From NCBI RefSeq assembly GCF_018889955.1, contig NZ_CP076545.1:1-64000 (forward strand): a stretch of DNA of 64,000 bases, in the 5' to 3' direction. This document shows positions 51,429 to 60,220 of this stretch, piece after piece (the first letter of the stretch is position 1; every line of letters begins with the position of its first letter). Source of the DNA: Collinsella sp. zg1085. GTDB lineage: Bacteria > Actinomycetota > Coriobacteriia > Coriobacteriales > Coriobacteriaceae. The notes under the pieces were generated by a model. The model ran no database searches. It was not told the DNA's origin and worked only from the letters and a program-made list of their open reading frames with translations. The position numbers and the translations under genes were made by a program.

Positions 51429-52082
51429 ATGGACTTTTCTTTGCTTACGCCTGCTAACCTAAACTTCATTTTGATGGGCTTTCTAAAAACCCTCCAGATT
51501 TCGGTGCTGGCCATTTTGTTCTCGCTTGTGCTAGGTAGTGCTCTTGCCATGATTAAGCAGTTTGCGCGTGGTCGTTTGCGTGTGCTTGCATGGCTGGTGA
51601 GCGCCTATATTGAGTTGTTTCGCTGTACTCCTAACCTGCTATGGATTCTCTTTATCTACTTTACGGTTAAGGGGTCTGATATTTTTATTTCGGTGTTAGC
51701 GTTTACCATTTTTACCTCGGCCGTAATGGCAGAAATTGTGCGCGGCGGGTTTAACTCAATTCCAGCAGGTCAGTTTGAGGCAGCACGCTCGCAGGGTTTT
51801 GGCTTTATTACCACTATGCGCTATATCGTTTTGCCGCAAACCTTTAAGACCATTATCCCGGCGCTGTTCTCGCAATGCACCACTGTTATTAAAGACAGCT
51901 CGTATTTGGCTGGTGTAAACGTTGCCGAGTTTATGTACTCAGCGAAGGTGGTTATGGCTCAAACCTCAGATTTAACGGGCGTTTTGAGTCTTTATGGCTT
52001 TGTGTTTGCGCTTTATTTTGCACTTAATTTTGGAATCTCGCTCATGGTACGCGCGTATCAGCGCCGCGTCGTTGCAGCATAA
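51429..52082 (+). CDS. Amino acid ABC transporter permease (second)
   Basis: This 217-residue HisQ/GlnP-type permease has an EAA loop ARSQGFGFITTMRYIVLPQTFKTIIPALFSQ and the YIELFRCTPNLLWILFIYF motif. With the preceding permease it forms the heteromeric membrane pore. The gene after it follows within 11 bp. Confidence 0.93.
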   Translation: MDFSLLTPANLNFILMGFLKTLQISVLAILFSLVLGSALAMIKQFARGRLRVLAWLVSAYIELFRCTPNLLWILFIYFTVKGSDIFISVLAFTIFTSAVMAEIVRGGFNSIPAGQFEAARSQGFGFITTMRYIVLPQTFKTIIPALFSQCTTVIKDSSYLAGVNVAEFMYSAKVVMAQTSDLTGVLSLYGFVFALYFALNFGISLMVRAYQRRVVAA

Positions 52083-52092
52083 AGGGGGAGTT

Positions 52093-52794
52093 ATGGGGTT
52101 CTTTTCGCGTCGCATGCTCGCGCGCGTTGAAGAGCAAGTATCTGCATCTGATGCGTTGCGCGCAGGGCAACCGGTAGTAATTACTATCGCCCGTGACTTT
52201 GGAGCCGAGGGGCACGAGATTGGCAAGATGCTTTCGGTTGAGCTGGGGATTCCGCTCTATGACAATGAGTTGCTCGTGCGCTCAAGTGTACGTAGTGGTG
52301 AATCCCTTGACAAGATTGCCGCCTATGACGAGCGTCAAGCTGCTGAGTTTATGGCGTTTTTGCCTGACCGTGTTGATACACGCAGTCTCTCCGACCGTTT
52401 ATTTAAGGCTATGACGCAGGTCATTTTAGATTTGGGAGCAACTGAGAGCTGCATTATCGAGGGGCGTTTGTCAGATTATTTGCTACGTCATAATCCCAAC
52501 CATATTGCCGTATTGGTAACCGCGCCGTTTGAAGAGCGCGTTGAGATTGTGCGCAACAAACGCGGTCTTAGCCGTGCGAAGGGTGCTAAGTTGGTGCGTG
52601 AAATGCAGCGTGCGCGCGAGCTGTTTTACAAGCGCTATTCTGCGGGCAGATGGAAGATGACCGACGGAAAAGACATTGTGGTAAACCGTGCAAAACTGGG
52701 TCGTCAGGGCTGTGTGGATGTTATTGCAGCGGCGTACCGGTCAAAGCTTGCCGAGCTTGAGATGATGAGCGTTACTCCCGAACAAGCGCAGTAA
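52093..52794 (+). CDS. Cytidylate kinase-like family protein
   Basis: The 233-residue protein belongs to the cytidylate-kinase-like family: VVITIARDFGAEGHEIGKMLSVELGIPLYDNELL resembles the P-loop region, though without a strict GxxGxGKS, and IIEGRLSDYLL and ITAPFEERVE-like motifs follow. A basic segment (NKRGLSRAKGAKLVREMQRARELFYKRY) would be the lid. The ATG after AAAGGGGGAGTT is chosen. It closes the amino acid transporter operon. Whether it is a nucleotide kinase or has another role is unknown. Confidence 0.82.
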   Translation: MGFFSRRMLARVEEQVSASDALRAGQPVVITIARDFGAEGHEIGKMLSVELGIPLYDNELLVRSSVRSGESLDKIAAYDERQAAEFMAFLPDRVDTRSLSDRLFKAMTQVILDLGATESCIIEGRLSDYLLRHNPNHIAVLVTAPFEERVEIVRNKRGLSRAKGAKLVREMQRARELFYKRYSAGRWKMTDGKDIVVNRAKLGRQGCVDVIAAAYRSKLAELEMMSVTPEQAQ

Positions 52795-52854
52795 TATTAT
52801 GACCCTGCCTAGTTTGCGGTGTTGCTGCGCATACGGGGTAGGGTTGAGATGCAC

Positions 52855-52880
52855 ATACAAGTTGTATAAATAGTTGTACA
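52855..52880. promoter_or_regulatory. Candidate GntR operator upstream of the regulator gene
   Basis: ATACAA-G-TTGTAT at 52855-52867 is a perfect short palindrome. It overlaps a second near-palindrome ending TAGTTGTACA (52871-52880). The same TAGTTGTA core occurs upstream of the PTS operon. No promoter hexamers are convincing. The rest of 52795-52929 shows nothing else. Confidence 0.5.
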
Positions 52881-52929
52881 CACTAGGGTAGACTAGGGCA
52901 GATGAGTTATCGATACAGAAAGTTACCCT

Positions 52930-53760
52930 ATGCCCGCTTCTTCCTCACAGCTTTCATCAACCATGCGTTCTGCGTCACGTAGTATTCAAACACCAGTTTC
53001 ACGGCGTGCTCAGGTGTCCCCTGTTGCAGCTGTTAAGCTTGAGCCCGGAGAGCCGTTTTATACTCAGCTTGCCGGTGTTATTCGAGAGAAAATCTATACA
53101 AAAGAATGGTTGCCGCGTACCAAGATTCCGTCTGAGCATATGCTTATGGAGCAGTTTCAGGTTGCGCGTGGTACGGTGCGCAAGGCTCTTAAGCTGCTGG
53201 TTGAAGAAGGTATTCTTGTGCAGATGCGTGGGAGTGGCACCTATATTGCTGAGCCAGGAATAACGCACGCTGCAGGCGTGCGCCCGCTGTCATTTGCCGA
53301 GTCTCTTCATGAGCAGGGTAAAGACTTTGTGACGCATGTTATTGAGAAATATATTGCGCCAGCTTCGCCAGAAGTTGCACGTGAGCTTGGCATTGATGAG
53401 GGTGCAGACGCGATGTTTATGCGCCGTGTGCGTACGGTTGATGATGACCCCATTATGTGTCAGGAAAGTTGGCTAAATTTTGGTGCGTGTCCGGGGCTTT
53501 TTGACATTGATTACACTAAAGAGTCGTTGTTTAATGCCGTGCAGCAATGCTCAGGTAAAAAGATTAAGACGTCTCGTATGAGGTATTCGGCGCGAGTTGC
53601 AGGTCGCGAACATGGAGAGCTCCTCAAGTGCAGCGAGACAGCGGCGTTGCTCTTGCTTGAGCAGAATATTAGCTTGGTGAACGGCACTGTCATTGAATGG
53701 TGCAACACATGGTTTAAGCCGGGGCAGTCGGTGGTGGGCACAGCAACACAGGCAGAATAG
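52930..53760 (+). CDS. GntR-family (UTRA) transcriptional regulator
   Basis: This is a 276-residue HutC-type GntR regulator. A polar N-terminal stretch of ~35 residues is followed by the winged helix (FYTQLAGVIREKIYTKEW, ending VRKALKLLVEEGILVQMRGSGTYIAEP). The UTRA ligand-binding domain starts at the RPLSFAESLHEQGKDFVTHVI segment and ends with TVIEWCNTWFKPG. UTRA domains usually sense sugar phosphates or similar ligands. Its position in front of a PTS operon, and shared operator-like sites, make it the likely regulator of that operon and of itself. Confidence 0.92.
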   Translation: MPASSSQLSSTMRSASRSIQTPVSRRAQVSPVAAVKLEPGEPFYTQLAGVIREKIYTKEWLPRTKIPSEHMLMEQFQVARGTVRKALKLLVEEGILVQMRGSGTYIAEPGITHAAGVRPLSFAESLHEQGKDFVTHVIEKYIAPASPEVARELGIDEGADAMFMRRVRTVDDDPIMCQESWLNFGACPGLFDIDYTKESLFNAVQQCSGKKIKTSRMRYSARVAGREHGELLKCSETAALLLLEQNISLVNGTVIEWCNTWFKPGQSVVGTATQAE

Positions 53761-53934
53761 CCGTTTTTGTATTGGGTTATACACTGCTGCCCACTCCGCT
53801 TATTTTTCGTGCCCAAATTGAGCAAGATTTTGGGTTAGTGGTGCCTGTATTTTGAGCTGATTAAGCGGGCTTGCGGCATTTCATGTAATAAAATTTGGCA
53901 ATTTACTACCGTTCAGCGACAAAAATATACCGCT

Positions 53935-54020
53935 GGGGGGGGCGCTCCCTGATTTTGACTAGCAAAGTTGACCATAATAGTGTATACAAGTAGTTGTATA
54001 TGTTGATGTGTACAACTATA
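53935..54020 (+). promoter_or_regulatory. PTS operon upstream region: eight-G run and operator
   Basis: A run of eight G lies at 53935-53942, followed by -35-like TTGACT (53955-53960) and TTGACC (53968-53973). The palindrome TATACAAGTAGTTGTATA is at 53983-54000, with a further TGTACAACTATA at 54009-54020. The palindrome resembles the site before the GntR gene. An exact -10 cannot be chosen. The rest of 53761-53934 shows no terminator I would trust. Confidence 0.5.
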
Positions 54021-54093
54021 GGCTTCTGGATACGAGATGTTCATAGGGCATGTACGTTCTTCGGAAACCTATACAGGAAGGAGGGGTTTTGTG

Positions 54094-54789
54094 ATGAGTG
54101 CACTGAGTTTGCGCGCTCCCTTTTTTGTGGTGAACCCAAAGTCATATCTCTATGGCGATGCGCTTTTGAGCTTGGCAAAAAAAGCCGACGAACTGGCTCA
54201 CAGCTATGACTTGGACATTCTGTTTACCGCTCAACTTATTGATTTGCCGTCTATCGTTGCTAGGTTTCCGCATTTGATTGCGTGTGCGCAGATGATGGAA
54301 AGCTTGCAACCGGGGCGCGGTATGGGTCATGTCTTGCCTGAGGCGCTTGCTGCAGCTGGTGTGGGTGCAACATTTCTCAATCATGCAGAAAACCCTCTCA
54401 CGGTTCATGAGCTTGCAGCAACTGTAGCACGTGCTCGTGAGCTTGATATTCGTTCGGTTGTATGCGCAGATTCGGTTGAAGAGGGAACGTGGATTGCGCA
54501 TCTTCACCCTGACATTATGGTTTGCGAGCTTACTAGTCTTATTGGAACTGGCACAACTGCTGATGAGGCATATATGCGTGAGTCAACGCAGGCAGTAAAA
54601 GCAATTTCACCTCAAACGCAGGTACTTCAAGCGGCGGGCATCTCAACTCCTGATGATGTGTATCGTGCGATTGCATGTGGAGCTGATGGTACGGGCGGAA
54701 CATCAGGCATTGTTGCTGCTGATAATCCGCATCAAGTTCTTGAAGATATGATAGCGGCGCTGGTACGTGCGCGTGCCGATTTTTACTAG
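54094..54789 (+). CDS. Triosephosphate isomerase-like protein
   Basis: The 231-residue protein is a divergent member of the TPI barrel family. The catalytic set is conserved: K16 in NPK, H97 in FLNHAEN and E145 in VCELTSLIGTG, plus phosphate-binding IGTG and the GTGGTSGIV loop. It is clearly not the housekeeping enzyme (FVVNPKSY and other unusual contexts). Relatives in sugar operons isomerise other phosphorylated ketoses or aldoses, for example L-erythrulose 1-phosphate; that role here is a suggestion. The ATG (a GTG lies directly before it) follows AAGGAGGGGTTTT. Confidence 0.82.
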   Translation: MSALSLRAPFFVVNPKSYLYGDALLSLAKKADELAHSYDLDILFTAQLIDLPSIVARFPHLIACAQMMESLQPGRGMGHVLPEALAAAGVGATFLNHAENPLTVHELAATVARARELDIRSVVCADSVEEGTWIAHLHPDIMVCELTSLIGTGTTADEAYMRESTQAVKAISPQTQVLQAAGISTPDDVYRAIACGADGTGGTSGIVAADNPHQVLEDMIAALVRARADFY

Positions 54790-54798
54790 GAGCATAGT

Positions 54799-55320
54799 AT
54801 GACGGTCTATAAAGAACAGCTTGTGTATGAAACGCTTTCTGGAAAGCCTACTTACGTAGACATCACTCAAGGCGTGCAAGAAATTGTGGCTGCATCGGGT
54901 ATTCAAGAAGGCGTGGTTGTTGTTATTTCTTGTCACACCACCTGCGCGGTTTTTTCAGAAGAATACGACCACGACCACACCCCTGATGGCGATACCTTTT
55001 TACAGGCAGATTTGAGTGATGGTCTGAACAGAATTTTTCCTGAACAACATGACTGGAAGACCTATCGCTATCCAGGTGTTTTGCATTTTGAAGAAGTTGA
55101 ATCATGGCCAAACCCTGAGTCGTATCTTCCCAATCTTGACCGCCGGATGCTCATGAACGGTGATGCGCATCTGCGCGCAACGCTTATTGGGAGTAATCAG
55201 ACGTTTGAAGTAGCACATGGTGCACTTGAGCTTAATGGGCTCGCAAGCATCTATTTTGTTGACTTTGACCGTACGCGTTCGCGTTCTCGTCGGGTGAAGG
55301 TTTGCGTGATGGGTGAATAG
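54799..55320 (+). CDS. YjbQ/UPF0047-family protein
   Basis: The 173-residue protein matches the YjbQ family, whose members show weak thiamine-phosphate synthase activity and whose true role is unsettled. Conserved parts are VVISCHTTCAVFSEEYDHD, the HLRATLIGSNQTFEVAHGALELN segment and FVDFDRTRSRSRRVKV. Histidines and acids in these motifs could hold a metal. The ATG follows AGGAGCATAGT, 9 bp after the isomerase gene. Its presence in a sugar PTS operon suggests a sugar-phosphate-related function. Confidence 0.85.
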   Translation: MTVYKEQLVYETLSGKPTYVDITQGVQEIVAASGIQEGVVVVISCHTTCAVFSEEYDHDHTPDGDTFLQADLSDGLNRIFPEQHDWKTYRYPGVLHFEEVESWPNPESYLPNLDRRMLMNGDAHLRATLIGSNQTFEVAHGALELNGLASIYFVDFDRTRSRSRRVKVCVMGE

Positions 55321-55346
55321 ACCCAGTGTATAGAAAAGGAGTAGCT

Positions 55347-55634
55347 ATGAAAAAAATTCTACTGGCATGCGGTTCGGGCATTGCAACATCAACGGCGGTG
55401 CGCCAAAAGGTTGAGGAGATGCTCAAAGAGAAAGGCTTTGGCGGTCAGTTTGAAATCACGCAGTGCAAAGTGTCTGAGGTGCCCGCCAAGTCTTTGAACT
55501 TCGACTTTGTTATTGCAACAACTATGGCACCAGCTGGTTTGACCCGTCCTTTTGTAAACGGAATTCCCTATCTTACAGGCGTTGGTGTTGACGTGGCTGA
55601 GCAGCAAATTCTTGAGCTTATGAACGCGGATTAG
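55347..55634 (+). CDS. PTS EIIB component, galactitol family
   Basis: The 95-residue domain passes phosphate from EIIA to the sugar. The active-site cysteine is C8 in ILLACGSGIATST, the P-loop typical of galactitol-type EIIB. ATG follows AAAGGAGTAGCT; an earlier start is unneeded. It sits between the YjbQ gene and EIIC; the matching EIIA is at the end of the operon. Confidence 0.92.
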   Translation: MKKILLACGSGIATSTAVRQKVEEMLKEKGFGGQFEITQCKVSEVPAKSLNFDFVIATTMAPAGLTRPFVNGIPYLTGVGVDVAEQQILELMNAD

Positions 55635-55803
55635 GGAGCATGAAGCTAAACGACCTGCGTTAGGGGTTTGTCGCTAACAAAGGTGCACGTAGGTTTGCTG
55701 CGCTGGTACAACTTGAGCTGGAAAGACAGAGCTGTGCCTCTGATAGGGATTTCTGTATCAAAAAGAGTAGAAGACATAGACGGATAGATATTAGGAGGAA
55801 ACC

Positions 55804-57207
55804 ATGGATGCCGTATTACAGTTCTTCTCGTTTATTAACTCTTTGGGTGTTTCGGTGGTAATGCCTATTGTAGTGACCATTTTGGGCTGCGTGCTGGGCG
55901 CTAGTTTTGGAAAAAGCTTACGCGCCGGTCTTACGGTTGGCATTGGATTTATCGGTCTAAGTTTGGTTATCAACAGCCTTTTGGGCACTACGCTTGCACC
56001 TGCCGTACAGGAGATGATTGAGCGCTTTGGCTTTAGTTTGTCTGTGGTTGATGTAGGTTGGCCTGCTGCGGCTGCAATTGCTATGGGGTCGGTGGTGGGC
56101 ACCATCATTATTCCGCTCGGTCTTATTGTGAACATTGTTATGCTGCTCACCAACACCACACAAACGGTTGACGTAGATATTTGGGATTATTGGCACTTTG
56201 CGTTTACTGGCGCGCTGGTGGCTATTGTGACCGATAACCTAGCGCTTGGTGTAGTTGCTGCGGTTGTTAATATGGTTGTGATTATGGTGTTGGGCGATTA
56301 TACGGCTCCACAGGTAGAGAAGTCTCTTGGCATGCCGGGCGTTTCGCTTCCCCATGGTTTTACGGCGGCATATGCGCCTATTGCTATGCTCTTTAACTGG
56401 GTTTTTGACCACATTCCAGGCATTAAAGATATTGATATTAACATCGAAAAACTCCAGCAAAAGTTTGGCATCTTTGGTGAGCCTATGATTATTGGCACCG
56501 TTATTGGTTTAAGCATTGGTGCCTTGGCGTATTGGAATGGGGCAGACCCGCAGGCTTCCGTTACAAAGATTTTGATGACAGCAATGTCTTTAGCTGCGGT
56601 ATTAGTGCTGATTCCCAAGATGGCAGCACTGCTTATGGAAGGTCTTATTCCTATTAGCGACTCTGCCTCTGAATTTGTTCAGAAGCGCTTTAAGAATCGT
56701 GGAAAAGTCTATATAGGTCTGGATTCCGCGGTTGGCGTTGGACATCCAACAACCTTAACCATTGCCTATATTCTGGTACCGCTCATGATTGTGCTTGCCG
56801 TATTTTTGCCCGGTAATCGCGTGCTGCCCTTTGCCGACCTTGCTGTGGTTCCATGGATGTTTGTGCTTATTACCCCGGTAGTGAACAACAACGGTTTTAG
56901 GGGCATTTTGATTGGCATTATTGTACTCACCGTAGGTCTCTACATTGCAACTGATTTGGCTCCGCTCATCACTCAAGCTGCTAATAACGTGGGATTTGAC
57001 ATTGCGGGTGCAACGGGTTCGGCAAGTACGATGATTTCGTCAATTTGCGACGGCGCAAACCCCTTGACCTGGGTTATTACGCGCTTGAATGGCTGGTTGG
57101 GCTATGCCGGCATGGGTGTGAGTATCGTTGTGGCAGCAGCCCTTGCCTTGTGGAATCGTGCACGCATTCTCAAAGAGGCTCGTGCGATGCATGAGGCAAA
57201 AGAATAA
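55804..57207 (+). CDS. PTS EIIC component, galactitol family
   Basis: The 467-residue membrane transporter of the GatC family has about 10-12 hydrophobic helices. Typical segments are FGKSLRAGLTVGIGFIGLSLV, DVGWPAAAAIAMGS and GVGHPTTLTIAYILVPLM. It would take up a polyol or ketose while phosphorylating it with the EIIB above. ATG follows TTAGGAGGAAACC. A gap of about 170 bp separates it from EIIB. Confidence 0.92.
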   Translation: MDAVLQFFSFINSLGVSVVMPIVVTILGCVLGASFGKSLRAGLTVGIGFIGLSLVINSLLGTTLAPAVQEMIERFGFSLSVVDVGWPAAAAIAMGSVVGTIIIPLGLIVNIVMLLTNTTQTVDVDIWDYWHFAFTGALVAIVTDNLALGVVAAVVNMVVIMVLGDYTAPQVEKSLGMPGVSLPHGFTAAYAPIAMLFNWVFDHIPGIKDIDINIEKLQQKFGIFGEPMIIGTVIGLSIGALAYWNGADPQASVTKILMTAMSLAAVLVLIPKMAALLMEGLIPISDSASEFVQKRFKNRGKVYIGLDSAVGVGHPTTLTIAYILVPLMIVLAVFLPGNRVLPFADLAVVPWMFVLITPVVNNNGFRGILIGIIVLTVGLYIATDLAPLITQAANNVGFDIAGATGSASTMISSICDGANPLTWVITRLNGWLGYAGMGVSIVVAAALALWNRARILKEARAMHEAKE

Positions 57208-57304
57208 GGGTCTATCAGCGGTTTTTATCTTAGGGATTTCTCAGAGATGCCTTGCGTTCTAACTGAGAACAACATTGCAATAAGACGAGCGAATCTATCG
57301 AGGT

Positions 57305-57333
57305 GAGGCTCCGCTATCTGTGCGCGGAGCCTC
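57305..57333 (+). promoter_or_regulatory. Intercistronic hairpin after the EIIC gene
   Basis: GAGGCTCCGC and GCGGAGCCTC form a perfect 10 bp stem with a 9 nt loop; GGGGGAG, the ribosome binding site of the next gene, follows directly. No U tract, so it is more likely an mRNA stability or processing element than a terminator. Confidence 0.6.
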
Positions 57334-57344
57334 GGGGGAGCGCC

Positions 57345-57920
57345 ATGAAACGCTATACGTATATCAGACGGTTTTACCTCATTGAGGTGGTATTAACAGC
57401 GTTTATCTGCGCTGGCGTGTTGGTGGTAGCACCGCTGCTCGCTTTGCAAGGAGTGTATCCTGGTCTCATGCTGGTTTTTATGGTTCCTGCAGCGTATCAG
57501 CTTTGGAATAGTTTGATTGCTGGTGCTAACCCGCACGTCGTTGAGCTGAGGGAGCCAGGAGCTGCGGCACGTGAGACTCGGCATAATGATGTGCGGCTTG
57601 ATGAACAGGAGCTCTCCTTTATTTCTTGGGGGCATGCACATCGATACAAGCTCGCTGAAGTGCAAGAATTTCGAGTACGTGAGTTTCCAAGTGCCGGAAA
57701 GTTGTATATTCGCATAAACGGCGGGGGTCTATTGCGTGGTCGATATTGGCTACAGACGAAGGTAATGACCGAGGGTGCAGAGCTCTTTCAGCGCATAATT
57801 GACCTCGAATACGCCAAGCACCCCGATAGTCTCAAAGCCTATGCTCGGCGCGTTAATTCGGGAGAAGCAGGCGATAGTACAGCAAAAGAAGGCGCTTGTT
57901 TGGTAGATGATACTCAGTAG
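57345..57920 (+). CDS. Hypothetical two-span membrane protein in the PTS operon
   Basis: I do not recognise this 191-residue protein. It has two N-terminal membrane helices (residues ~10-55, LIEVVLTAFICAGVLVVAPLLAL and LMLVFMVPAAYQLW) and a soluble, PH-like C-terminal part (LSFISWGHAHRYKLAEVQEFRVREF and GRYWLQTKVM). The ATG follows GGGGGAGCGCC. It lies between EIIC and the aldolase genes, after a hairpin. No link with sugar use is known. Confidence 0.7.
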   Translation: MKRYTYIRRFYLIEVVLTAFICAGVLVVAPLLALQGVYPGLMLVFMVPAAYQLWNSLIAGANPHVVELREPGAAARETRHNDVRLDEQELSFISWGHAHRYKLAEVQEFRVREFPSAGKLYIRINGGGLLRGRYWLQTKVMTEGAELFQRIIDLEYAKHPDSLKAYARRVNSGEAGDSTAKEGACLVDDTQ

Positions 57921-58007
57921 ATGACGGTGCAACTTTAGAAGAAGCCAGCACGAATTTGGAAAAGACCGGCACAAATGTAGTGGGTATTAGCATAAAAAGG
58001 AAAAACA

Positions 58008-58706
58008 ATGTTTGAGAAGCAAAAAGAACAAGTGCTTCAAGCAGCACGAACACTTGACCGTTATGGCTTGATTGCGCTTTCAGGTGGTAATGTTAGTTGG
58101 CGTATGCCTACCGGTGAGGTTTTGGTAACCCCATCAGGCATGATATATGACCAGATGGTGCCCGAGGATATGCTTGTTGTTTCGCTGGACGGTAGCATTA
58201 TTGAGGGCACACTAAAGGCTTCTGTTGATACTGAGGCACTGTTGTATATCTTTCAACATAAACCTTCGGTTCAGGCAATTATTCACACACATCAACCGTA
58301 TGCCACGGGTCTCGGCCTGGTTATGGATGAGATTCCATGCAATTTATCAACTATGGCAAACGCCACGGAAGGTCCGGTAGCGGTTGCAGCATACGGGGAC
58401 CCAGGCAGCTTATCTATGGGTGTTGAGGCGGTTCGAGCGTTGGGCGAGCGCTTAGCCGTGGTGCTTAAACATCACGGGGTTATTGCGGTTGGCAAAGACC
58501 TTAAGCAAGCGCTGTATGCCTGCGTTTATCTGGAAGAAGCTTGTAAAACTATCTCGGTTGCTATGGGCACTGGAAACCCTATGGCAGCGATGACACAGGA
58601 ACAAATCAATGAAGCGGTTGCAGTGTTTCATCGTTATGGACAAGATGTTCCAGCGGCGGACAGCTCAAGCGCGAGCAATAAAGACGTAGATATAGCTTTG
58701 GTTTAG
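58008..58706 (+). CDS. Class II aldolase/epimerase (fuculose-1-phosphate aldolase family)
   Basis: The 232-residue protein belongs to the zinc enzymes that split ketose 1-phosphates to DHAP and an aldehyde, or epimerise L-ribulose 5-phosphate. Visible are SGGNVSWR (phosphate binding), the zinc histidines in IIHTHQPYATG and the third in LKHHGVIAVG. The usual acidic residue region reads KASVDTEALL, slightly different from the fuculose enzyme (PSSE...). The ATG follows AAAAAGGAAAAACA. The reaction cannot be fixed from sequence. Confidence 0.85.
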   Translation: MFEKQKEQVLQAARTLDRYGLIALSGGNVSWRMPTGEVLVTPSGMIYDQMVPEDMLVVSLDGSIIEGTLKASVDTEALLYIFQHKPSVQAIIHTHQPYATGLGLVMDEIPCNLSTMANATEGPVAVAAYGDPGSLSMGVEAVRALGERLAVVLKHHGVIAVGKDLKQALYACVYLEEACKTISVAMGTGNPMAAMTQEQINEAVAVFHRYGQDVPAADSSSASNKDVDIALV

Positions 58707-58785
58707 AGACGTAAGGCACCGTCGTGACGGGCTTTTGCGTTGCGCCTGCTGGCTGGTAGAAAACGATGTATAAGGATGAACAACC

Positions 58786-59658
58786 ATGATTCTCAATCTA
58801 GGTGATATATGCCATATTGCTGAGCAGCATGAGATGGCGCTGGCAGCATTTAATGTTCCCAGTTTAGAGGCTCTGCGTGCCGTGTTGGACGCAGCAGAAG
58901 AAACAGGTTACCCCGTTATTATTCAACATGCCGAATGTCATGAAGAAATGGTGCCGCTGCGGGTGATGGGACCTGCAATGGTAGCGCTTGCGGAGTGCTC
59001 GTCGGCACAGGTTTGTGTGCATTTGGATCATTGCGAGCATTTATCGTATATGCGCGAGGCGCTTGAGCTGGGATTTTCAGGCGCTATGTTTGATGGGTCA
59101 ATGTTGCCCTATGAGAAAAATGTTGAACTGTCGGCATACGCGGCTGAAATGTGTGCGCCTTATAACTGTGGACTTGAGTGCGAGCTTGGCAGCATGGGTG
59201 CGCGCGAAGGGGGAGATGATGCTCAAAATCCTGCAGCTCAGGCAATGTATACCAATCCTGAACTTGTGTCTGATTTTGTAGCAGCAACAGGGCTTGATAT
59301 ATTGGCGTGCTCTTTTGGCACGGTGCACGGTCTGTATCGGGGTGAGCCAAAGTTATCAATTGAGATTTTGAATCAAATTCGTGAGCGTGTGCATATTCCT
59401 TTGGTTATGCACGGAGGGTCGGGCGTATCTGACGACGATTATCGGCGCGCAATTGAGGCGGGTATTCGCAAAATTAACTACTATACCTATGGCGTAAAGT
59501 ATGCTGCTGAGGCGGTATTATCACTGGTAGATTCTGCGCGCACTGCTGGTACAACGCTGTATTGGCATGACATGACAGGTGCGGCATATGAGCGTATGCG
59601 TCAAGACGCCGTGCGCGTTATGACTGTGTTTGCTAACGGTGCAGCACCGGTTTGCTAA
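58786..59658 (+). CDS. Class II ketose-bisphosphate aldolase (Fba/GatY-like)
   Basis: The 290-residue zinc aldolase cleaves a ketose 1,6-bisphosphate to DHAP and glyceraldehyde 3-phosphate. Marks are AFNVPSLEALRAVLDAAEE, VHLDHCEHLSYM with the catalytic aspartate and zinc histidine, YNCGLECELGSMGAREGG and LVMHGGSGVSDDDYRRAIEAGIRKINYYT. It could be a tagatose- or fructose-bisphosphate enzyme; but the operon has no kinase to make a bisphosphate, so that product would need a kinase elsewhere. It lies 79 bp after the other aldolase. Confidence 0.88.
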   Translation: MILNLGDICHIAEQHEMALAAFNVPSLEALRAVLDAAEETGYPVIIQHAECHEEMVPLRVMGPAMVALAECSSAQVCVHLDHCEHLSYMREALELGFSGAMFDGSMLPYEKNVELSAYAAEMCAPYNCGLECELGSMGAREGGDDAQNPAAQAMYTNPELVSDFVAATGLDILACSFGTVHGLYRGEPKLSIEILNQIRERVHIPLVMHGGSGVSDDDYRRAIEAGIRKINYYTYGVKYAAEAVLSLVDSARTAGTTLYWHDMTGAAYERMRQDAVRVMTVFANGAAPVC

Positions 59659-59743
59659 GGTGCTAGTAAATATTTAGGCATGCATCGCCAAACAAAACTG
59701 TGTGCGCGGCGGTATGTGTGGCTTGATTGAGAGGATAAGAGTT

Positions 59744-60220
59744 ATGACACAGGTTGATGCTGAGCTCTTTGCTTCTGAGCTGGTCTTTTTAGATATAGAT
59801 GTAGAAGATAGGACGACATTGTTTGCTGAGTTGGGCAAGCGTTTGCGTGAGCTTGGCTACATTAAAGAAAATTGGTTTGAAGCCATTACCAAACGCGAGG
59901 TGGATTACCCCACCGGTCTAGCGTGCCAAGCTATCAACGTGGCAATTCCGCACACCGAGCCAGAGCACCTTATTAAGCCCTATATTGCAGTTATTAAGCC
60001 AAAGCAGCCAGTGCTCTTTGAGGCTATGGCGCATATGGGCAATGATGTTCCTGCGCAGTTGGTGGTTAACCTTGGGCTCCTTGCGCATGAGGACAGCCAG
60101 GTAGCAGCCTTGCAAGCACTCATGGCGTGCTTCATGAATGAAGAAGCATGTGCTGATATTCTTGGACAAACAAGCCCTGAAGGCATGGTTGAGGCGATGC
60201 GAAAGTATTGCGCTGTATAA
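59744..60220 (+). CDS. PTS EIIA component (fructose/mannitol/galactitol type)
   Basis: The 158-residue EIIA accepts phosphate from HPr on H70 in VAIPHTEPEH and donates it to EIIB. Typical features are the KRLRELGYIKENWFEAITKREVDYPTGL segment. The ATG after GAGGATAAGAGTT is used. It ends the operon, apart from its EIIB and EIIC by about 4 kb, an unusual split for these three genes. Downstream is a tandem-repeat spacer and a bidirectional terminator. Confidence 0.9.
   Translation: MTQVDAELFASELVFLDIDVEDRTTLFAELGKRLRELGYIKENWFEAITKREVDYPTGLACQAINVAIPHTEPEHLIKPYIAVIKPKQPVLFEAMAHMGNDVPAQLVVNLGLLAHEDSQVAALQALMACFMNEEACADILGQTSPEGMVEAMRKYCAV

Follow-up and report, generated by a model that had tools for sequence, protein, structure and literature searches.

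A near-obligate TIM-YjbQ gene pair in a GntR-type PTS operon of Collinsella sp. zg1085 and its possible role in degrading a rare ketose

What could a gut bacterium degrade with an operon that joins a galactitol-type phosphotransferase system (PTS) to two aldolase families without encoding a dehydrogenase or a kinase? This question is raised by nine genes, all on the plus strand, at positions 52930-60220 of the window, by which we mean the whole 64,000-nucleotide stretch analyzed (G000:C1:1-64000 of the 1.72 Mb genome of Collinsella sp. zg1085). We consider it possible, with somewhat less than even confidence, that they form a self-contained operon, under GntR control, for the uptake and degradation of a rare ketose, and that in it an isomerase resembling triosephosphate isomerase (TPI; the operon protein is called TIM below) and the YjbQ protein would move the carbonyl group before a class II aldolase of the Fba family cleaves the sugar phosphate. 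A survey of open reading frames and protein families gave the following genes:

52930..53760, plus strand: GntR/UTRA-family regulator (PF00392, PF07702), which leads the locus in relatives too
54094..54789, plus strand: TIM-like isomerase of the archaeal-type TPI subfamily (PF00121, PRK04302)
54799..55320, plus strand: long YjbQ (UPF0047; PF01894), 173 amino acids, predicted partner isomerase
55347..55634, plus strand: PTS EIIB of galactitol type (PF02302; PRK10310 below cut-off)
55804..57207, plus strand: PTS EIIC of the EIIC-GAT family (PF03611, 305 bits, 1e-90; TIGR00827, 434 bits, below the cut-off of 542)
57345..57920, plus strand: membrane protein conserved in the operon (AlphaFold2 model; no Pfam or NCBIfam match)
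58008..58706, plus strand: class II aldolase/4-epimerase family protein, FucA/AraD-like, an optional member (PF00596; best NCBIfam PRK06557, 180 against a cut-off of 251)
58786..59658, plus strand: class II Fba-like aldolase (PF01116), predicted to use a ketose 1-phosphate
59744..60220, plus strand: PTS EIIA (PF00359, PTS_EIIA_2)

The gene set named in the initial annotation (GntR, galactitol-type EIIB, EIIC and EIIA, two aldolase families, a TIM-like protein and YjbQ) was recovered in order by family matches for every member, and the absence of a dehydrogenase or kinase among the genes was borne out. The integral-membrane protein encoded between EIIC and the class II aldolase had been missing from that list. 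The TIM start is placed at 54094 rather than 54037, because relatives align from 54094; those of EIIB, the membrane protein and EIIA are probably near 55347, 57345 and 59744.

The core of the operon is a near-obligate two-gene cassette of TIM and YjbQ, a pairing that is firmly supported. Among 398 evenly sampled Bacillota genomes (TIM at E<=1e-30, long YjbQ at E<=1e-60), the two occurred in the identical 12 genomes and were neighbors in all 12, a count that ignores kinship among the 12; every other YjbQ match was much weaker, with E about 1e-13. A profile scan of genome contigs with the TIM alignment gave 55 loci in Coriobacteriia, Enterococcaceae, Bacillaceae, Clostridia and other groups. Across all loci, YjbQ lay directly downstream of 75 of the 82 TIM genes, directly upstream of three and divergently nearby in two. 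The last two TIM genes had no YjbQ nearby: one stands beside a transposase-like sequence on a contig of a metagenome-assembled genome (MAG; L039), and the other is a second copy of the gene in L119. Fba, TIM and YjbQ stand in a row in most Firmicutes loci.

TIM scored 173.8 bits against PRK04302 (cut-off 132), and K16, H97 and E145, the presumed catalytic Lys/His/Glu, were invariant in an alignment of 13 diverse members; the housekeeping TPI of the same genome is encoded separately, at 1.16 Mb. Bacteria and archaea both have YjbQ proteins, with many structures solved, but we know of no accepted function for them. The operon YjbQ matched PF01894 with 87 bits (cut-off 27) and fell narrowly below the cut-off of TIGR00149 (62 against 67.75 bits). 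Its AlphaFold2 model (predicted local distance difference test, pLDDT, 95; predicted template modelling score, pTM, 0.88) matched YjbQ structures alone, at Z 15-19 (Z 19 to 1vmj), the next match being uninformative at Z 4.3. Six invariant residues (H46, E55, D71, H96, D122 and H124) may together make up a metal or acid-base site. E. coli yjbQ, when overexpressed, relieves a pdxB (vitamin B6) defect in a way still to be explained (PMC7954711), which would fit an activity on small sugar phosphates.

While TIM and YjbQ stay together, the genes around them are exchanged. This emerged from the comparison of TIM and YjbQ neighborhoods that the initial annotation had proposed. A galactitol-type (Gat) PTS serves as entry module in 55 loci, 50 of them with Fba, and a Gut PTS with the oxidoreductase DXR-II in six, all with Fba. 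Two loci (L108, L109) combine a Fru PTS with HxlB and the epimerase Rpe and have no Fba; HxlB and Rpe also stand on the short contig L110, where no PTS EIIBC was seen, and no HxlA was seen in any of these three clusters. Three others (L043, L044, L046) have a Man-type PTS, so typed from gene size and order, with an Rpe-like epimerase and Fba. FGGY kinases and dehydrogenases adjoin the cassette in L086, L105 and L054, and L114 has an FGGY kinase, an AraA-like isomerase and a DeoC/LacD aldolase. Bacillaceae versions additionally carry Rpe and an aldehyde dehydrogenase, and an E1 of the pyruvate dehydrogenase or acetoin dehydrogenase type adjoins YjbQ in L113, L116, L117 and L119. Since the cassette also stands behind Gut, Fru and Man PTSs and FGGY kinases, the galactitol PTS is no defining part of it.

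These arrangements bear on the order of reactions. It had been suggested that an imported ketose becomes a ketose 1-phosphate and is cleaved, and that the products are then isomerized and rejoined. That a ketose is imported, and not a polyol, agrees with the absence of a dehydrogenase both here and in the conserved operons that join a Gat PTS to Fba-TIM-YjbQ, and the cleavage step agrees with the Fba active site described below. The rejoining of products did not hold up: because the pair is near-obligate and turns up with other entry modules and in the absence of Fba, it is more likely that TIM and YjbQ work on the ketose phosphate ahead of its cleavage. EryH and LerI, which are TIM homologs, interconvert CH2OP-CO-CHOH-R and CH2OP-CHOH-CO-R. 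By analogy, the Gat-type PTS would import and phosphorylate the ketose to a ketose 5-phosphate, YjbQ would shift the carbonyl from C2 to C3, and TIM would shift it next to the CH2OP group, as EryH and LerI do with erythrulose phosphate, to give a ketose 1-phosphate that Fba would split into dihydroxyacetone phosphate (DHAP) and an unphosphorylated aldehyde. YjbQ is proposed for the second carbonyl shift because a ketose 5-phosphate needs one and, apart from TIM, YjbQ alone is constant among the enzymes; its reaction and the operon substrate are both hypotheses. Where a kinase or fructose-type PTS supplies the 1-phosphate, the pair may run in reverse. HxlB, whose substrate is a 3-keto sugar phosphate, supports such a carbonyl walk when it stands beside the cassette, since this is the intermediate that the walk needs. 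The L108 HxlB is above its equivalog cut-off (207.7 against 160 bits), as are the Rpe proteins of L070, L108, L110 and L116 above that for ribulose-phosphate 3-epimerase, and it is suggestive that three isomerases in the HxlB clusters would suffice for three shifts of a hexulose.

The aldolase reading of Fba can be held with fair confidence. We aligned the operon aldolases with E. coli KbaY, GatY and YdjI, assigning residue roles from the general knowledge of class II aldolases. The metal and catalytic residues D82, H83, E132, E134, H180 and H208 were kept in all 59 sequences, as were the DHAP-phosphate residues G181, S211 and N230, with T233 present in all but one. By contrast, the loop facing the substrate tail has changed to A50-[EQ]51-x-H53 relative to KbaY and GatY (positions 49-53), and the C-terminal region differs too. 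The coriobacterial and Firmicutes enzymes form two deeply separate clades with the identical change in the tail pocket. With the DHAP half-site intact and the tail pocket altered in both clades, Fba would perform DHAP chemistry on substrates with a non-phosphorylated tail, that is, ketose 1-phosphates, in line with the cleavage of a ketose 1-phosphate proposed at the outset. The other protein, of the fuculose-type class II family, has Asp where FucA has the catalytic Glu, and with this replacement it may be an epimerase and not an aldolase.

As for the substrate, the lead comes from relatives. The oxidoreductase of the Gut-PTS loci is DXR-II (E 2e-103 in L061 and 1e-85 in L050 to Brucella abortus 3upy/3upl), also known as DRL, which has been described as an enzyme of isoprenoid biosynthesis and reported in bacteria that lack the rest of the methylerythritol phosphate (MEP) pathway (PMC3847144). 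Compared by eye with the diagnostic sites given in that paper, L061 keeps G121, T229, H250, R320 and V351, and L050 keeps all of these except V351, which is Ile. DXR-II occurs in 37 of the 398 Bacillota genomes, and in all three that also have TIM the two genes are no more than about 7 kb apart (chance about 2e-7). Among 20 DXR-II loci read, about 15 had Gut PTS IIC or IIBC genes, most of these with E1alpha, E1beta and E2 as well, and dehydrogenase-free Gat PTSs adjoin several DXR-II/E1/E2 loci. In an IIC tree, the IICs of two cassette operons (Thermoanaerobacterium L062 and L101) nest among those from DXR-II genomes with 100/99 support; the best Bacillota PF03611 matches (most of L220-L246), which tblastn with the window IIC missed at 1e-10, were unsuitable as outgroups for it. 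A 1-deoxyketose, for example 1-deoxy-D-xylulose, which would yield DHAP and acetaldehyde, is the foremost candidate, though unproven. A broader proposal, which we regard as speculative and rather unlikely in full, is that TIM-YjbQ converts ketose 1-phosphates into ketose 5(6)-phosphates and back, which would be the first physiological role of YjbQ, and that with DXR-II, Gut or Gat PTSs, and Fba or E1/E2 it belongs to a network, so far undescribed, for the catabolism of 2-C-methylerythritol and 1-deoxy-D-xylulose. If the substrate lead holds, DXR-II in bacteria without the rest of the MEP pathway could be catabolic.

Several observations weigh against these proposals. DXR-II, E1/E2 and HxlB are all missing from the window operon, whose substrate must therefore be judged from relatives. 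The window IIC shares only about 51% identity with the IICs linked to DXR-II and stands in a separate clade, which makes transfer of a substrate from those relatives uncertain. The genome-level overlap of TIM-YjbQ and DXR-II (three genomes) is near the 1.1 expected by chance; only the physical linkage is striking. The class II aldolase at 58008-58706 is unexplained in the pathway we favor, and is missing from many orthologous operons. To our knowledge YjbQ resembles no known isomerase, and a cluster in Shinella resembles an erythritol-type C4 pathway.

That Shinella cluster, with its order SDR, TIM-barrel epimerase, TIM, YjbQ and FGGY kinase, recalls EryB/C/H/A with YjbQ in the slot of EryI, and so suggests a tetrulose pathway in which TIM is an erythrulose-1-phosphate isomerase like EryH or LerI, YjbQ replaces EryI/DerI (RpiB) in converting D-erythrulose 4-phosphate to D-erythrose 4-phosphate, and Fba uses or makes erythrulose 1-phosphate. 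LerI and DerI are isomerases of just such threitol and erythritol chemistry (PMC10733421), and a TIM homolog that shifts the keto group of a ketose 1-phosphate is common to both systems. However, the window operon has YjbQ in place of RpiB, adds a PTS entry and an aldolase, and of the erythritol-type set (FGGY kinase, dehydrogenase, EryC, EryH and EryI/RpiB) has only the TIM homolog. Cleavage of erythrulose 1-phosphate would yield formaldehyde, which is odd for catabolism; RpiB, already able to perform the EryI step, accompanies the cassette in L061; and DXR-II, HxlB and Rpe in sister clusters indicate C5 or C6 sugars. We regard this explanation as improbable. Direct cleavage of an imported ketose 1-phosphate by Fba and the class II aldolase, with TIM limited to converting DHAP to glyceraldehyde 3-phosphate and YjbQ an accessory that supplies thiamine phosphate or repairs damage, is equally unlikely in our judgment. 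It would agree with the intact DHAP site of Fba, and a weak, secondary thiamine-phosphate synthase activity is attributed to the YjbQ family in the passage of PMC4731195 that cites Morett 2008. Against it, the genome already has a housekeeping TPI, TIM-YjbQ is found in clusters without class II Fba, and the window operon contains no thiamine-dependent enzyme.

Far less likely still is the known galactitol, tagatose or pentitol pathway with its dehydrogenase and kinase encoded elsewhere. EIIA, EIIB, EIIC and Fba do come from families of galactitol operons, and the E. coli gat and kba operons share a GatY/KbaY-like class II aldolase with the window operon (gat also the Gat-type IIA/IIB/IIC). Unlike them, the window operon lacks a GatD-type dehydrogenase, GatZ and a kinase, includes TIM and YjbQ, and encodes an aldolase with a different tail pocket. 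All three PTS components and Fba fall under the galactitol or tagatose equivalog and subfamily cut-offs. Neither galactitol-1-phosphate dehydrogenase nor tagatose-6-phosphate kinase was found among the open reading frames at 52930-60220 or in the orthologous operons, including those in another phylum, and the Gat PTS operons with MDR dehydrogenases, among those read, mostly have other IICs (42-48% identical to the window IIC). Family searches of the window's own genome have so far given no support for genes elsewhere: two of four MDR dehydrogenases and one of seven PfkB kinases belong to a ydjHIJ-type operon, the sole operon inspected. Galactitol, tagatose and pentitol operons are not known to us to contain TIM or YjbQ genes, which also counts against this alternative. 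The statement that no described pathway has this exact gene set is upheld by our literature search on YjbQ/UPF0047, such gene sets and methylerythritol or deoxyxylulose catabolism, which found no account of the operon or pathway, with subscription journals thinly covered.

The carbonyl-shift pathway, if true, would give YjbQ its first pathway, and with a near-obligate partner, a set of swapped neighbors and a specific reaction hypothesis the function of YjbQ becomes directly testable. The operon itself is no chance arrangement, because its order is conserved in congeners and the motif TAGTTGTAYA is confined to its intergenic regions. Five congeners are syntenic for the gene set. One of them (L016) lacks the class II aldolase, and in another (L012) only gntR, TIM, YjbQ, EIIB, EIIC and the membrane protein were seen; TIM, YjbQ, EIIB and EIIC are accordingly the invariant part. 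The motif has three copies in the window, all within two intergenic regions of the operon, where 0.17 would be expected, and they mark the following candidate sites:

52853..52881, plus strand: candidate GntR operator 5' of gntR (ATACAAGTTGTAT...TAGTTGTACA), from the TAGTTGTAYA count
53983..54018, plus strand: candidate GntR operators 5' of tim, the near-palindrome TATACAAGTAGTTGTATA at 53983-54000 and an inverted half-site at 54009-54018

The perfect form TACAACTAGTTGTA is present in one relative (L032), 85 bp 5' of tim, although a conserved operator was untraceable in most relatives. From these sites we infer an autoregulated, GntR-controlled unit.

Operons from Coriobacteriia as far as a MAG of Streptococcaceae retain the membrane protein at 57345-57920. 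Its model (pLDDT 91) shows a beta domain and, at the N-terminus, two long helices, and a fold search with it gave no confident match in the Protein Data Bank.

The DXR-II loci include a conserved SorC - Gut PTS - DXR-II - E1alpha - E1beta - E2 operon in Bacillota (L200-L217, e.g. L203, L204, L207). We predict that this operon serves 2-C-methylerythritol catabolism, and its gene content suggests a route from 2-C-methylerythritol through its 4-phosphate and 1-deoxy-D-xylulose 5-phosphate to acetyl-CoA and glyceraldehyde 3-phosphate. In L251, L253, L254, L257, L262 and L265, a Gat-type PTS without dehydrogenase either stands beside DXR-II or E1/E2 or has a DXR-II operon nearby in its genome; it is a possible importer of 1-deoxy-D-xylulose. 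L264 combines a Gat PTS, an MDR dehydrogenase and E1/E2 (E1 identity 64-71%), perhaps for a 1-deoxypentitol. In L258 a Gat PTS (IIC 56% to the window's reference set) is followed by two genes of the class II aldolase family.

E. coli YdjI is likewise a class II Fba-family enzyme annotated for a ketose 1-phosphate (L-glycero-L-galacto-octuluronate 1-phosphate), but its clade is apart from both operon Fba clades. The ydjHIJ-type operon of the window's genome (G000:C1:686390-691965, L163) encodes proteins 75% (YdjI), 60% (YdjJ) and 58% (YdjH) identical to those of E. coli, and this cluster at 686-692 kb was rejected as a second galactitol operon for being of ydjHIJ type. Finally, a cytidylate-kinase-like gene lies just 5' of gntR, at 51994-52794 of the window, and one is likewise located 5' of the operon in L014.

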